Shown here piece by piece: positions 11,683 to 43,761 of a DNA stretch of 64,000 nucleotides. The position numbers and the translations under genes were made by a program. Each line of letters starts with the position of its first letter. The first letter of the stretch is position 1. The stretch is from Polychytrium aggregatum. Taxonomy: Eukaryota; Chytridiomycota; Chytridiomycetes; Polychytriales. Location of the stretch: contig NW_026516204.1 in NCBI RefSeq assembly GCF_025602895.1, positions 496,001-560,000 of the forward strand. Direction: 5' to 3'. The notes under the pieces were generated by a model. That model was not told where the DNA came from. It was given only the letters and a program-made list of their open reading frames with translations, and made no database searches.

Positions 11683-12593
11683 CTAGTCTCTGGTCGACTT
11701 TCTCTTGGATCCGCCGCTGAAGCTTGCGGAGGAATCACTGGCTCTGGCGTTGCCGACGATCTTTTTGAGCTGTCAGACGACGGGGGAAGCGTCAATGACT
11801 GTCCACTACCACGCTGCTAACGACTATCAGGAACCAGGAGAGACCGGCTGGACTCACTCACCTCCTTGTTGAGCGTAGCGGCCGAGAGCTCGGATGCTTG
11901 GGTCATCTGGAGGAGCTGTTGGAACAGCTGCACCATCTCGGTCATGTCTTGACCGTTGCCGCCCTGCGGGTTTGAGGCTTGAAGGCCCTCGTCCTCGTCC
12001 GTTTGGCTGTCGTTGTCATCGACATCGTCGTCGTCCGAGAAGGGCACGACCTGCATGGCGGCCGAGGAGCCGTGGCGGATTCTGGGCAGATGATGCACCT
12101 GGATGCGGGTGCCATGCCACTCACATCCGTCGAAGCCGTCGACGCAGTAGAGCCTGCACTGCTCGCGGAAGCCCGATTTCTTTGTTTTGTAGGGGCACCT
12201 GGCTTCCCTCATGACCGTGAGGCCTGTAGACATGCGCACAAGTTTAGTCAAGAGCCATGCCCAAGGCCCCAAGCAGAAATCCAAGGAGTTGCGCTGGCGG
12301 TGGCTGCTTGACGCCGGGATTGATTCCTCAACAAGCAGCGCGGGAAGAAGTCGGCATGGCATACCTCGAATGATCTCTTTGCCATGGTAGCGGCAGCCGT
12401 CCCAGCCTTTCATGCAGCCCCACTTGCACTGCTTGGTGAAGTTGGAAACGTCGGTTCCGTAAGGGCAGCGACCATCAATGCTCTGGCCGCTGTGGGCATT
12501 GCAGAGCTTCCCCGTGGCGAGAGCAGTGCCGGCGCACCGCCTCTTGTTTTCGCTCGAAACGAAGGCGCATCGGGTCGTTTGGAACTGGGGCAT
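11683..12593 (-). CDS. cysteine/histidine-rich protein with duplicated zinc-finger-like motif
   Basis: Exons 12593-12365, 12223-11862 and 11769-11683 close in phase for 225 residues. The last exon was chosen because a GTGAGT donor follows NKE and a CAG acceptor precedes LKKIVGNARAS. Cys/His clusters: RRCAGTALATGKLCNAHSG near the N-terminus, then two copies of a motif, CPYGT..NFTKQCKWGC....GCRYHG and CPYKT..GFREQCRLYC....GCEWHG, one on each side of intron 1. A DDDDVDDNDSQTDEDE acidic run and a Gln/Met-rich amphipathic helix (MVQLFQQLLQM) follow. The first cluster resembles the C3Hc3H-type motif of KANSL2/INO80D proteins. That comparison is from memory and function is not assigned. A chromatin or nucleic-acid-binding role is only a guess. 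Confidence 0.75.
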
Positions 12594-13521
12594 CGTAGGT
12601 TAGATTGATTTGACTTGCTTTGATTTGATCAAATAGCTTTGAGCGGGTGGGCCTCGGTGCAGAACATGACAGTGAGCCGGCAACGGGGCCATATATATAC
12701 GAATTCCTTCGCGGCGGGTTGCTGCATCTCCGAGGCGACTGGCGGATACCCTGCGATGTATCCCCTCCAGCCAGGAGAGGGAGAGAGAGAGGGCTGAGGG
12801 TACCCGGCTGACCTTGGGTGGAAGCGCCGCGTGTGCCCAGACGACCAATGACATCTCCATGCCAGGGTATCCCCCTCTGCGTTCGCGCAGGGGCTGGGGG
12901 GGCGGTGCTTGTCATGGCCCCTTCACAAAACGCGATACGGACCACTCCAAAAGGCAGATGGCCGATGAAATATACTTTGTGGGAGCGACACCGAGAGAAA
13001 CAAGTCCATCCATTGGGGGTGTGCTGCAGGTCGGGGAGTGCTTTCCTTGCGTATCCACCGCGGATACCCGAGGAATGCTCGGCGGATACCCAGCCGATGT
13101 TTGACCAGCTCGACCTGCTCGACCTGTTCGACCTGTTTGATTTCTTTCTTGGCGCCACCGGTCTGTGCAACCAAAGGGCCCATATCACTATCAATTTTTT
13201 CCGGCCCCCCGCGGCTGCTCATCTCGGTCACCTGAAAGTCACGTTGTATGTGACGCAGCAAAAGTTGGAATCCGGCCATGGTCGGTTGATGGCATTTGGT
13301 ATCACCTTGAGCCGATTGACGGTGGTGGTGGGCAATTGGTGTGGAGGAATGACCAATTGTATCATTGTTGGAAGTTCCACTCCGATTGCGGACAAGAACC
13401 ACCACCATCTGAATCTCTCTGGTTGGAAACCTAGTCAAGCGTGGCTGTGTGTCAGCGAGATGACATGATCGTTTGGCTATCAGGCAAGACTCACCTTGAC
13501 AAGATGTCTTCCCACGACTGA
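12594..13521. other. region upstream of Fanzor copy 1; promoter plus possible 5' element sequence
   Basis: Divergent upstream DNA of the Cys-rich gene, then about 0.5 kb that may hold the N-terminal part and left end of the Fanzor element. Stretches around 13200-13470 are open in two frames but I could not assign a RuvC-I or N-terminal domain or a terminal inverted repeat here. A short CTCGACCTG run lies at 13108-13140. Confidence 0.5.
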
Positions 13522-14433
13522 TTGAGCGAGCGATGCGTTTCTGGATCTGAATCAAGGACGCCACTGCGCAGTATCTCTGCCAGCCCAAAATGCGCTGGTT
13601 TTGAGGAGATTCTTTCTTCCCCAAGGGCAGAACCAGCCATCGTCGCTATTTTCTCGCCAGATGGCTCCCCGCAAGTGAAAGGCACCACCCAGGCGACCAA
13701 GTGGATCCAGAGCACCCACAAGATCCTTGGTCTGCAGCAATGGATGAGCACCACACCGAGCCCCAAGATCCCTGGGTTGGCTTCCTTCCTGCGATACATT
13801 CGCCATGTGTTCAATGGAGACATGCTGGACAAACAGCTGTACTTCAGCCTGACCCGGCGACGGCGATTCAAGCGACTCGATCTCCACAGCAAGCGACAGC
13901 GCACCGTCCACGAGATGTGCAAGCAAGTCATCGACCAGGCACCACCGGAGACCGAGGTGGTGATTGCCTTTGGGAATGCATCCTGGAAACAGGGGAAGGG
14001 ATACCCATCCAGTCCCAGGAGACTCAGGTTTGCCAAGTATTTCGAGCAGTTCCACCACCACCAGAGACGACCACCAGACCGATCCGTCTCCAAGATCCAT
14101 GTGTGTTCGGTGAACGAGTTCAACACATCCCAGGTATGCTCACATTGTCGGGAATTCAAGCGACTTGAGTCACCCGAGCATCTTGATATCGAGAAACCAC
14201 ACTTTGTCCGGAGCTGTGCAAGCTGCCATACGCTGTGGGATCGAGACATCAATGCAGCCAGGAACATGATCTCGGTATGCCAGTCGATCATCGCCACAGG
14301 AGATCGACCGGGTGTATTCAAGACTGTGCTCCCGAAACCAACCAAAACCACTCGATTGCCAACCAGGACGGGAAACAATCTCACGGCTTGCTCGCTGGGG
14401 CCTACAGTCAGTCAGCGGGGTTCAGATATCTGA
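13522..14433 (+). CDS. Fanzor-type (TnpB/Cas12-like) RNA-guided nuclease, C-terminal two-thirds, copy 1
   Basis: Eukaryotic homologue of TnpB carried by transposons. The open frame (303 codons) encodes GTTQATKWIQSTHKI, an arginine-rich helix FYSL-like segment (YFSLTRRRRFKRLDLHSKRQ), the RuvC-II region VVIAFGNASW (about residues 147-155), then VNEFNTSQVCSHC (Glu199, Cys206/209), RSCASC (Cys232/235) and the RuvC-III signature LWDRDINAARNM (Asp242). The CxxC...CxxC zinc finger inserted before RD-x-N-AARN is diagnostic of TnpB/Fanzor. No acidic residue sits at the FGNAS position; the Glu of VNEF is 48 residues on, matching the rearranged catalytic Glu described for Fanzors. A RuvC-I candidate DLNQGRHCAV is present at 13544-13573 but one frame away, so either an intron or an indel separates it, and the N-terminus is unresolved. 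Possibly a decaying copy. Codons 5' of about 13650 are uncertain. Confidence 0.85.
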   Translation: MSERCVSGSESRTPLRSISASPKCAGFEEILSSPRAEPAIVAIFSPDGSPQVKGTTQATKWIQSTHKILGLQQWMSTTPSPKIPGLASFLRYIRHVFNGDMLDKQLYFSLTRRRRFKRLDLHSKRQRTVHEMCKQVIDQAPPETEVVIAFGNASWKQGKGYPSSPRRLRFAKYFEQFHHHQRRPPDRSVSKIHVCSVNEFNTSQVCSHCREFKRLESPEHLDIEKPHFVRSCASCHTLWDRDINAARNMISVCQSIIATGDRPGVFKTVLPKPTKTTRLPTRTGNNLTACSLGPTVSQRGSDI

Positions 14434-14475
14434 AGCCAGGAAGGGGAAGTGTCCCGTTTCTTTCTGGATAGACTG
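13541..14475 (+). mobile_element. Fanzor-bearing transposable element, copy 1 (left end not found)
   Basis: Homologous to the element at 42881-43669 from TGAATCAAGGACGCCA (13548-13563) and continuously from 13801 to 14475, where similarity stops exactly at GACTG followed by TA. The right end AGTGTCCCGTTTC..GGATAGACTG is the counterpart of the terminal inverted repeat in copy 2. No matching left inverted repeat is visible upstream to about 11 kb, so the element is either larger, truncated or diverged on that side. Confidence 0.75.
14421..14434. other. 14-bp perfect palindrome near the Fanzor 3' end (candidate guide-RNA hairpin)
   Basis: TTCAGATATCTGAA reads identically on both strands, overlaps the stop codon of copy 1 and is conserved at 43615-43628 in copy 2, where the frame differs. 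TnpB/Fanzor guide RNAs come from the element's 3' end; assignment as part of an omegaRNA is inference. Confidence 0.45.
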
Positions 14476-14477
14476 TA

Positions 14478-14958
<481 letters not shown>

Positions 14959-16194
14959 ATGATCGGACAGGTTCGTGCCCCATGCCTTGCGCTGTCGGCG
15001 TTATGTGCTCGCCAAGACATTGATCCTCCCGTCGCAGCGTAGCGCACCGCACTCATCTGCGATCGGCACCAACAGCCGTGGTCGCGATTGATTCGCTTTG
15101 CTGCCCAGGATGGCCGCATCTACCATGGCCAGCCCGTTGTCGACCAGCTCGGTCGGTTCCCGCAAGCTTTGGGCGGCCTCGAGGCCTACGTCGTCGAAGG
15201 CGATATCTTTGGTGCAAATTCCGTCACCAACACCTTGCTCAAAGTCGAAAAGGTGACGCTCTGCAGTCCATGGGGCCGCCATCGCGAGCAGCTACTGGGG
15301 TCATATCCACGATGCTTGCGCTTGCATCTCGCTCATCCAGCTCCGGTTTCTTCTTTCGCCGCCCAAGCTCCTAGCTCCTCTTGAACGAGTGCCCATCTTC
15401 CTGGGCATCGGGCTCAACTACGCTTCCCACGCAGCCGAGCTCAAGACCGCTCCCCCGCCCCAACCGGTGCTCTTCACCAAACCCCCTGGAGCCCTCCAGC
15501 ATCCGTTCGAGCCCATCGTTGTTCCCCGCGTTTGTGCAGACGCCGAGGCCGACTATGAAGCCGAGCTGGCCGTCGTCATCGGAAAGCGGTGCAAGAACGT
15601 CAATGCCCACGAGGCCCTCCATTATGTCGCCGGCTACACCTGCGCCAACGACGTCACCGCTCGATATTGGCAGCGGCAAGTCGGCCAGTGGACTTTCTCC
15701 AAGAGCGTAAGTTCTGGGCGAACGGCGAAAGGCGAATCGGATCGTGCCTGTGGATGCGCCTCGTTTCATCGATCGCCGCATCCTCCGCTCGAGCTCCGCC
15801 CTGTCAATGAAGGCTAACTCCCTGTCCCTGGCTCCAGTTCGACACCTTCTGTCCCCTCGGGCCAGTCATCACCTCCACGGCCTTGATCCCCGATCCCAAT
15901 GCTCTCGGCATCTCGCTCAGACTCAACGGCGAGCTCATGCAAAACTCGTCCACCAAAGACATGATCTATCCCGTTGCGTCGCTCGTGTCGTTTCTGTCCC
16001 AGGGCACAACGCTCGAACCCGGCACCGTGATCCTGACTGGAACCCCTCCAGGTGTTGGCACTGGCAAGGACCCCAAGTTGGTCCTCAAGCACGACGACCG
16101 CTGCGAGGTTGAGATCGAGTCGATCGGCACGCTGGTCAACCCGGTGGTCTACGGCGCTGACGAGCCTTCGGTCGAGTGGAGGACTTTGCCCTGA
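14959..16194 (+). CDS. fumarylacetoacetate hydrolase (FAH) family protein, FAHD2-like
   Basis: Four exons, 14959-14970 (only 12 nt), 15076-15252, 15368-15706 and 15838-16194, give 294 residues. The spliced start MIGQPWSRLIRFAAQDG fits the WSRLIRF opening of FAHD2-type proteins; the first donor is GTTCGT, a weak GT site, so a different short first exon is possible. Family features: VPIFLGIGLNYASHAAE, FTKPPGALQHP, the metal-ligand stretch EADYEAELAVVIG and CANDVTARYWQ, then FDTFCPLGP, LRLNGELMQNSSTKDMIYP and LEPGTVILTGTPPGVG. This fold hydrolyses or decarboxylates beta-diketones or oxaloacetate, using a divalent metal bound by Glu/Glu/Asp. The substrate cannot be told from the sequence. Confidence 0.92.
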
Positions 16195-42868: not shown

Positions 42869-42880
42869 CCAGGGACATTA

Positions 42881-42908
42881 CTGGTCAATCCAATAAAAAA
42901 CGGGACAC
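42881..42908. repeat. left terminal inverted repeat of copy 2
   Basis: Inverted partner of 43642-43669. It shares the core CCAATAAAAA(A)CGGGACA with the solo end at 57549-57596. Confidence 0.8.
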
Positions 42909-42975
42909 CCGTGATTTTGGCGATTGATCAAATATTCTGTTACCCAATACAATCGCGCGCTGGCCATGACCATTC

Positions 42976-43663
42976 TGTGTTTTGAATCAAGGACGCCATG
43001 TGTTCGATGGAGACATGCTGGACAAACAGCTGTACTTCAGCCTGACCCGGCGACGGCGATTCAAGCGACTGGATCTCCACAGCAAGCGACAGCGCACCGC
43101 CCACGAGATGTGCAAGCAAGTCATCGACCAGGCACCACCGGAGACCGAGGTGGTGATTGCCTTTGGGAATGCATCGTGGAAACAGGAGAAGGGATACACA
43201 TCCAGTCCCAGGAGACTCAGGTTTGCCAAGTACTTTGAGCAGTTCCACAACCACCAGAGACGACCACCAGACCGATCCGTCTCCAAGATCCATGTGTGCT
43301 CGGTGAACGAGTTCAACACATCCCAGGTGTGCTCACATTGTCGGGAAGCCAAGTGACTCGAGTCACCCGAGTATCTTGATGTCGAGAAACCACACTTTGT
43401 CCGGAGCTGTGCAAGCTGTCATACGCTGTGGGATCGAGACATCAATGCCTTACGGAACATGATCTCGGTATGCCAGTCGATCATCGCCACAGAAGATCGG
43501 CCGGGTGTATTCAAGACCATGCTTCCCAAACCAACCAAAACCACTCGATTGCCAACGAAGACAGGAGTGCAATGCCATGGCCTACCCGCTGGGGCCTACA
43601 GTCAGTCAGCGGGGTTCAGATATCTGAAGCCAGGAAGGGAAAGTGTCCCGTTTATTTCTGGAT
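42976..43663 (+). pseudogene. Fanzor-type nuclease pseudogene, copy 2
   Basis: Retains MLDKQLYFSLTRRRRFKRLD, VVIAFGNASW, VNEFNTSQVCSHCREAK and, after a TGA at 43354-43356, the zinc-finger second half SCASCHTLW and RDINALRNM. The stop corresponds to CGA in copy 1 (CGA to TGA). The AARN of RuvC-III is altered to ALRN. The segment between DLNQGRH-like codons and VFDGDMLDKQ is deleted. The 3' end is read in a different frame from copy 1. No functional nuclease can be made. Confidence 0.88.
43615..43628. other. 14-bp palindrome TTCAGATATCTGAA, copy 2
   Basis: Identical to 14421-14434 in copy 1, near the element's right end. Confidence 0.45.
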
Positions 43664-43761
43664 AGACTGTACTGGTCAGCATTTAGGAATGGCCACGGAA
43701 AGAGCTATATTCAGTGTTGGATGCAGGGAGTATCAGGATCCATCGAGAAGACCGGAGCCGT

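Follow-up and report, generated by a model that had tools for sequence, protein, structure and literature searches.

A Fanzor1 relic within an internally deleted, CACTA-ended transposon of the chytrid Polychytrium aggregatum

Described Fanzor1 elements and the Polychytrium locus

Transposons of the CACTA/EnSpm (CMC) group carry CACTA termini, are flanked by 3-bp duplications and give rise to internal deletion derivatives. Fanzor1 genes have been described in Tc/mariner elements, e.g. PUl-1, PGv-1 and PUl-4, in the available part of the account by Bao and Jurka (PMC3627910). For the chytrid Spizellomyces punctatus, the available sections of a second study report 42 Fz loci and 134 'ghosts', state that the authors found no transposase in the inverted-repeat elements termed Spu-1, list D383, N385, E541 and D606 as the metal ligands of SpuFz1, and treat the biological role of Fanzor as an open question (PMC10432273).

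The locus analysed here lies in a 64,000-nucleotide stretch of P. aggregatum DNA (hereafter the window) and represents a known kind of element in a new combination, a Fanzor in a CACTA-ended vehicle. The elements of its group, designated family A, resemble CACTA/EnSpm elements in their CACTA termini, 3-bp duplications and deletion derivatives, and differ from them in their Fanzor cargo. The likeness to Spu-1, as far as the available sections describe it, is that both systems involve a chytrid Fanzor1 and many derivatives devoid of an intact gene; the Spizellomyces ghosts, however, have no ORF and keep ~550 nt, whereas the P. aggregatum short form keeps the last third of the ORF (PMC10432273). 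Family A also differs from Spu-1 in that its ends are of CACTA type and flanked by a 3-bp duplication and in that a mariner repeat lies in its interior, and SpuFz1 itself is matched by the P. aggregatum relatives at the profile level only. Two other families in the same genome, B and C, are like PUl-1, PGv-1 and PUl-4, in the part of the description available, in combining a transposase ORF and a Fanzor within mariner-type ends with TA outside, whereas family A stands outside the mariner context and has the transposase as a 16-codon remnant (PMC3627910). Literature searches for Fanzor together with CACTA and for Fanzor together with Polychytrium found none among the papers covered, and a prior report of CACTA-borne Fanzors may exist. 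A term search of the available text of PMC10711439 gave no CACTA, CMC or EnSpm, and one work that names both Fanzor and EnSpm handles them, in its accessible part, as separate elements.

P. aggregatum offers a natural experiment in which related Fanzors occupy mariner homes (families B and C) on the one hand and a CACTA-ended vehicle (family A) on the other. Its hundreds of intact and deleted copies and its paired alleles allow one to ask whether a Fanzor benefits its carrier, and the same genome can be used to probe guide-RNA donation by deleted copies and conversion caused by RNA-guided breaks. The ~100 long family C frames, 92–100% alike where compared, constitute a source of nucleases for assays.

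The window element, its Fanzor ancestry and its deletion

The element at 13186–14896 is a 1.7-kb non-autonomous, internally deleted derivative of a 3.4–3.8-kb element and contains no Fanzor gene. Its parts and the duplications beside it are as follows, in window positions.

13183–13185, no strand: left target-site duplication TAT, equal to 14897–14899
13186–14896, plus strand: entire non-autonomous element, family A short form, with ends CACTATCAATTTTTTC ... TTTTTTTCATAGTG; limits from alignment with fetched loci
13503–13550, plus strand: 3'-terminal remnant of a Tc1/mariner transposase gene (DVFPRLIERAMRFWI, then stop), by DNA match to the family B copy L019 (3074–3126)
13661–13678, plus strand: former Fanzor start codon, reading MAPRK and then stop, by comparison with full-length copies
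13681–13690, plus strand: deletion junction, ~1.8 kb missing, with CACC (13683–13686) common to both sides
13681–14433, plus strand: C-terminal Fanzor relic (final ~250 of 856 residues) with the zinc ribbon and later RuvC acids and no RuvC-I
14450–14477, plus strand: right inverted repeat of the Tc1/mariner Fanzor element, TGTCCCGTTTCTTTCTGGATAGACTGTA, with 2 mismatches against the family B right end
14478–14493, plus strand: sequence in the putative guide position, AGTATCTTGTTCCTTG, near-constant across family A
14602–14747, plus strand: (GT)n microsatellite within the element, of variable length between copies
14766–14896, plus strand: conserved CACTA-type right end, with TCTCGCC-like repeated words discerned by eye
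14897–14899, no strand: right target-site duplication TAT, mate of 13183–13185

Downstream of the element lies a FAA_hydrolase gene (PF01557, E 4.7e-30 and 2.3e-27) in at least two pieces at 15389–16191. A Pfam search with an upstream minus-strand frame (11820–12593) gave zero matches, as did searches of the window with Rfam at gathering score and for tRNAs, and a search of a plasmid collection.

Within the element, a frame of 303 codons plus stop (13522–14433) holds VVIAFGNASW (13957–13986), VNEFNTSQVCSHC (14110–14148), SCASC (14212–14226) and LWDRDINAARNM (14233–14268). The first-pass annotation had correctly placed these four motifs in one frame and in a chytrid fungus and, judged by sequence, they are the C-terminus of a Fanzor1. 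The profile search it had proposed matched the frame to Pfam Cas12f1-like_TNB (PF07282) with an E value of 1.3e-10, above the gathering score, a result that rules out a chance occurrence of the motifs; a 303-codon frame with no significant profile match, the outcome named in advance as refuting a Fanzor, did not arise. NCBIfam guided_TnpB gave E 3.4e-7, under that model's cut-off. A protein search with the frame returned 11 matches, 8 of them predicted P. aggregatum proteins (best homologue, E 1.7e-102), and a profile built from full-length relatives ranked SpuFz1 (8gkh) first in the PDB at E 4.5e-10, where sequence searches with single proteins gave weak matches only. The structural comparison, likewise proposed at the outset, spoke for the assignment by its ranking, at low TM-scores: Foldseek with a model of the C-terminus (pLDDT 61) placed Fanzors at ranks 1–5, headed by SpuFz 9cey (E 1.4e-5, TM-score 0.34), with TM-scores of 0.34–0.37 for the Fanzor matches. 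Profile, homologue and structure searches all point to descent of the window copy from Fanzor1.

Aligned as DNA, the window copy consists of the two ends of a long element joined together. Between shared anchors there are 1807–1900 bp in all 20 long loci and 18 bases in the short loci, and a single deletion junction is common to all 28 short loci fetched. About 600 residues including RuvC-I are gone, with about the last 250 of 856 kept, and at the old start codon the full-length copies have MAPKRKTPPDPDPG or similar, versus MAPRK-stop in the window copy. A full-length copy compared with the window matches only the two ends of this first element and a second relic described below. The suggestion that the locus was, or is, a Fanzor element is accordingly borne out for its past and not for the present copy, which is no Fanzor gene; likewise, the copy had been called spliced or decayed, and it is decayed, since the single common junction of the missing part identifies a deletion and rejects a spliced gene with exons at 12.6–13.7 kb. 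The 303-codon frame begins with TTG and has its first ATG at 13744. One motif assignment has to be given up. DLNQGRHCAV (13544–13573), proposed as RuvC-I in a different frame, overlaps the end of the mariner transposase remnant (13503–13550) and extends past it into DNA before the old Fanzor start codon, and the true RuvC-I (WIGIDPGVGSIFTAVI; WIGIDPGVGS) sits in the part lost from the window copy. VVIAFGNASW is without any acid residue.

In an alignment of nine long-locus proteins and two relatives from a JGI source, the acids D557 (WIGIDPG), E752 (VNEFNTSQ) and D795 (RDINAA), in the numbering of the L014 protein, are invariant in all 11 rows. The first D, the E before the zinc ribbon and the last D of family A agree with the ligands of SpuFz1 as given in the available part of its description (PMC10432273). 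Full-length relatives such as L014 have the RuvC D...E...D arrangement with a zinc ribbon, as does, by motif, the family C copy; the window copy keeps the later E and D and has lost the RuvC-I D with the deletion. Because RuvC-I and the first ~600 residues are absent, the window copy cannot act alone as a nuclease.

When the 303-aa frame was compared with the 64.7-Mb genome (best 130 of 1736 candidates scored), frames of ~300 aa aligned from the query's first residues and longer ones, many of 850–980 aa, only from about residue 31. The genome-wide check for full-length relatives, also called for at the start, brought in the 20 long loci, all with open frames of 857–921 aa, two of which contain TGA; 13 of the 20 pass a stricter script (more than 600 aa without a stop and the string NAARN present). 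The sample of 28 short and 20 long-frame loci was taken from the best-scoring matches, so that decayed copies are under-represented in it. Further genome searches scored the best 40 of 173 and the best 40 of 696 candidates, and PF07282 the best 150 of 663; since only the best candidates were scored, the numbers of copies are minimum values, and a candidate is not in itself a confirmed copy. Related copies number in the hundreds in the P. aggregatum genome, and many of them contain long open frames.

CACTA-type ends, nested mariner pieces and the other families

Family A begins with CACTATCAATTTTTTC and finishes with TTTTTTCATAGTG, giving the termini CACTAT...ATAGTG, and the window element itself is bounded by CACTA...TAGTG. 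The two ends were legible as a pair in 27 of 48 loci, which represent 22 distinct sites, the other 21 loci being uncounted. A perfect 3-bp target duplication is present at 15 of these 22 sites (binomial p ~1e-22), starting with T in 14 of the 15, and 7 sites have no 3-bp duplication. The right end (14766–14896) shows 96–100% identity in the best 40 of 160 candidates scored. When the two flanks of the window copy were joined (206 bp) and used as a query, no empty site was returned.

A candidate for the mobilizing enzyme is encoded in the same genome. PF02992 (Transposase_21, the CACTA transposase) has 29 matches there, 28 of them above cut-off, and none in 14 control genomes. One such locus, L049, holds a 5.7-kb CACTA element whose left and right ends are CACTATGAAAAAAA and TTTTTTTCATCGTG and whose target duplication is TGG. 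The right end of the window element, reversed, is identical to the left end of L049 over 14 of 14 bases; for the window left end (CACTATCAATTTTT), 8 of 14 bases match the CACTA transposon end, including the first 6 in a row. The left 213 bp of L049 recur at 22 places (18 at ~100% and 4 at 96% identity), and CACTATGAAAAAA occurs 150 times in the genome versus 3 times for the reversed control, a count that includes the right ends of the Fanzor elements themselves; at two further PF02992 loci, L050 and L051, no CACTATGAAAA was found within two mismatches. Recognition of the window ends by the PF02992 transposase stays an expectation, because the left end matches in its first 6 bases only.

The interior of family A carries pieces of a mariner element whose fuller form is seen in family B. 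This family comprises 4 of the 20 long loci (L017, L019, L021 and L025) and has the ends CAGCCAATCCAATAAAAAACGGGACAC...TGTCCCGTTTCTTTCTGGTTTGACTG; TA lies just beyond these ends in L017, L019 and L021, and L025 is missing its left part. L019 holds, in addition to a Fanzor, a 310-aa DDE_3 transposase (E 7.3e-24) terminating in DVFPPLIERAMRFWA, and the last 16 codons of the family B transposase, stop included, are retained in the window element at 13503–13550. Downstream, the mariner right repeat adjoins the Fanzor frame, and its final base, 14477, is where the first-pass annotation ended. The window copy has this right repeat only, in an internal position, and so does not display the TA duplication and matching repeats at both ends that mark a Tc1/mariner element. 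Beyond the right repeat, family B copies have differing DNA and family A copies one of a few similar sequences. As the transposase remnant and right repeat flank the Fanzor inside a CACTA-ended element, family A is most simply viewed as a CACTA-ended element that captured the right part of mariner-Fanzor DNA, and its Fanzor gene appears to have moved between transposon classes. Four of the 28 short loci are not plain family A, since in them the mariner right repeat is followed by unique flank: L029, L030 and L044, with a CACTA-side left part and a mariner right end, and L031, a short form that has mariner ends on both sides, look like further recombinants.

The window copy is very probably an internally deleted, non-autonomous CACTA-ended transposon whose parent had captured mariner-Fanzor DNA and whose short form multiplied. 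Established within this account are the Fanzor relic, the deletion with its common junction, the nested mariner pieces, the CACTA-like ends with their duplications and the transposase-bearing element with a similar end; mobilization in trans, guide-RNA production and the order of events are what we infer from them. A CACTA-ended element would have taken up the right-hand part of a mariner element, comprising the transposase 3' end, the whole Fanzor1 gene and the right repeat. A deletion at the 4-bp repeat CACC would have taken out ~1.8 kb, including RuvC-I and almost the entire N-terminal two thirds, and the short form would then have multiplied. Its movement is most likely in trans, with the PF02992 transposase from a CACTA transposon of this genome acting on its CACTA-type ends. 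The short copy itself makes no nuclease, and any such enzyme would be supplied by full-length Fanzors; of what remains in it, the termini could be of use, as could perhaps the guide-RNA scaffold region where the mariner element once ended on the right.

Mariner-type copies are present in the window and elsewhere in the genome. The family C copy read (L052 plus L054, C418:46187–49950) has mariner-type ends, a shortened transposase ORF and a 790-aa Fanzor frame with 39% identity to family A, bearing the motifs WIGIDPGVGS, NELNTSQVC and RDVNAARNM. Its 262-aa N-terminal piece was found at 92–100% identity in the best 146 of 370 candidate loci scored, and 103 of these 146 loci have frames of at least 790 aa, three of them with one stop in the matched part. 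Counted by rows, 105 of 148 reach that length, four rows being two loci, and one copy was read to its end. The set is possibly among the largest Fanzor gene sets in one genome. The window also contains a second, mariner-ended relic.

42881–43671, plus strand: second Fanzor relic, mariner left end joined to the Fanzor C-terminal part and right end

Its left end (~95 bp) reaches to 42975, the stretch 42994–43671 holds the C-terminal portion of Fanzor together with the right mariner end, and TA flanks the relic at 42879–42880 and 43670–43671. At the DNA level it is 93.7% identical to the first relic and 88.9% identical to the family B and C left end, and it carries one premature stop.

Frames with the TNB domain (107–477 aa) occur on contigs C49, C124, C379, C157 and C346 at 70.5 bits and more of them on C279, C29, C228, C229 and C224 at 61 bits; these ten-contig frames score above families A–C on PF07282 and may belong to another TnpB/Fanzor lineage. 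The predicted P. aggregatum proteins P0012 (PF00646), P0013 (PF00501 and PF07993), P0014 (PF00621 and PF00397) and P0015 (PF00069) pair Fanzor pieces with other domains and are likely gene-model artefacts or insertions into genes.

Possible roles of the short form and exchange among copies

The short frame could be a gene in its own right, namely a selected 'mini-Fanzor', a C-terminal RuvC/zinc-ribbon protein whose translation might start in an upstream exon and which would bind DNA or guide RNA or control full-length Fanzor. No stop occurs in the C-terminal test region of any of the 28 short copies, their pairwise dN/dS (699 nt) is 0.31, which alone would suggest a conserved protein, and the predicted protein P0005 is readable as an upstream exon plus the relic frame, so that translation is possible. 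The stop-free sample was chosen by protein score, however; the former start codon and the relic are in different frames, and the changes private to short copies (11 synonymous, 37 nonsynonymous and 0 stop) give a ratio of ~1 per site. Moreover, 24 short and 14 long copies, compared after removal of the four family B loci and of one partner from each of six haplotig pairs, share 108 polymorphic sites and have 0 fixed differences, and so constraint in the short copies may be borrowed from the long ones. Long family A copies (n = 16) have a pairwise dN/dS of 0.24 and private changes of 11 synonymous, 15 nonsynonymous and 0 stop; with 160 synonymous and 539 nonsynonymous sites their private ratio is ~0.4 versus ~1 for the short copies, a contrast that is insignificant (Fisher p 0.11). 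The changes private to short copies look neutral, and we take the older shared variation to have been inherited from full-length copies or exchanged with them. A selected protein is, on this evidence, very unlikely. Neutral private changes fit a dead transposon fragment, immobile and with no role, whose features stem from past multiplication only, and in its favour CACTA elements are known to give rise to internal deletion derivatives. Nothing decisive speaks against such a fragment, which differs from the multiplied, CACTA-ended derivative preferred here in ongoing mobility only, and we regard it as a serious possibility, if less than an even one.

Compatible with the preferred explanation, but rather unlikely, is retention of the short form as a guide-RNA donor for full-length Fanzor in trans, after the manner of the Spizellomyces ghost loci. 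The right-end repeat (14450–14477) with ~40 nt upstream is a candidate guide-RNA scaffold by its sequence, its fold being suggestive at best. The mariner right repeat is present in 27 of 28 short loci (absent from L033 in that search), the scaffold-then-end layout is akin to that of SpuFz1 in the available part of its description (PMC10432273), and in a fold made with 16 sequences hand-picked from the right-end listing the helix CCAGAAAG/CUUUCUGG is paired in 95.5% of cells. Yet the fold is barely above shuffles, with 89.5% of cells paired versus 88.2% (3 of 500 shuffles as high), its covariation score is 0.104 versus 0.097 in shuffles (110 of 500 as high), and the same fold slid by one column scores higher, at 0.129. 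The would-be guide, too, is near-constant in family A, unlike flanking DNA, and a guide RNA made from the old mariner end would carry that near-constant guide. One of its variants, TAAGTATCTYGCACTGTT, has 77 exact genomic sites, none of which looked like a vacant target: 76 have G before TA, as a mariner end does (judged by this mark and not read individually), and the last is a mariner end that has mutated. A second variant is AGYATCTTGTTCCTTG. It is conceivable, though quite improbable, that CACTA capture froze the guide; a nuclease that had helped its element return to empty sites would then have a fixed target, because the near-constant sequence, not each insertion's flank, now follows the scaffold, and Fanzor breaks would drive exchange among the dispersed copies, hence the nearly lost linkage and the allele differences confined almost wholly to the elements.

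Summed over six haplotig pairs, L003/L013 and L015/L027 among them, the flanks show 16 differences in 15786 sites and the elements 337 in 13591, a ~25-fold contrast for which the left boundary of L015, an altered end, was set by hand; a seventh pair, L029/L030, has zero differences in the 699-nt region. Linkage falls in the short copies from r2 ~0.5 within 10 bp to ~0.05 beyond 10 bp, and in the long copies from 0.56 to 0.16 at 10–50 bp and 0.08–0.10 beyond. Most sites that differ within a pair have both states in other copies (35 of 41, 17 of 17, 9 of 11, 9 of 11, 14 of 17 and 29 of 30), and the differences are significantly clustered at the 0.05 level in four of the six pairs, one of them at p 0.03, with p 0.11 and 0.06 in the insignificant two. 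Ectopic gene conversion fits both the allele contrast and the lost linkage, and mixing of repeat reads in the assembly could be an alternative source of the two. Family A diversity is low in non-coding parts (0.7–1.8% at 13336–13535; 1.1–1.6% at 14536–14635 and 14786–14835) and reaches 2.5–13% in the mariner/Fanzor-derived part (13536–14485), the left end also being high at 4–11%. Short and long forms can occupy the same site, as L003 (short) and L013 (long) do. The flanks of the window copy recur once, on C12, as 107 and 103 bp that are 100% identical and ~1.6 kb apart, and the 792 bp fetched of the allele there (L055) contain 26 mismatches, every one of which lies within 13659–14179.
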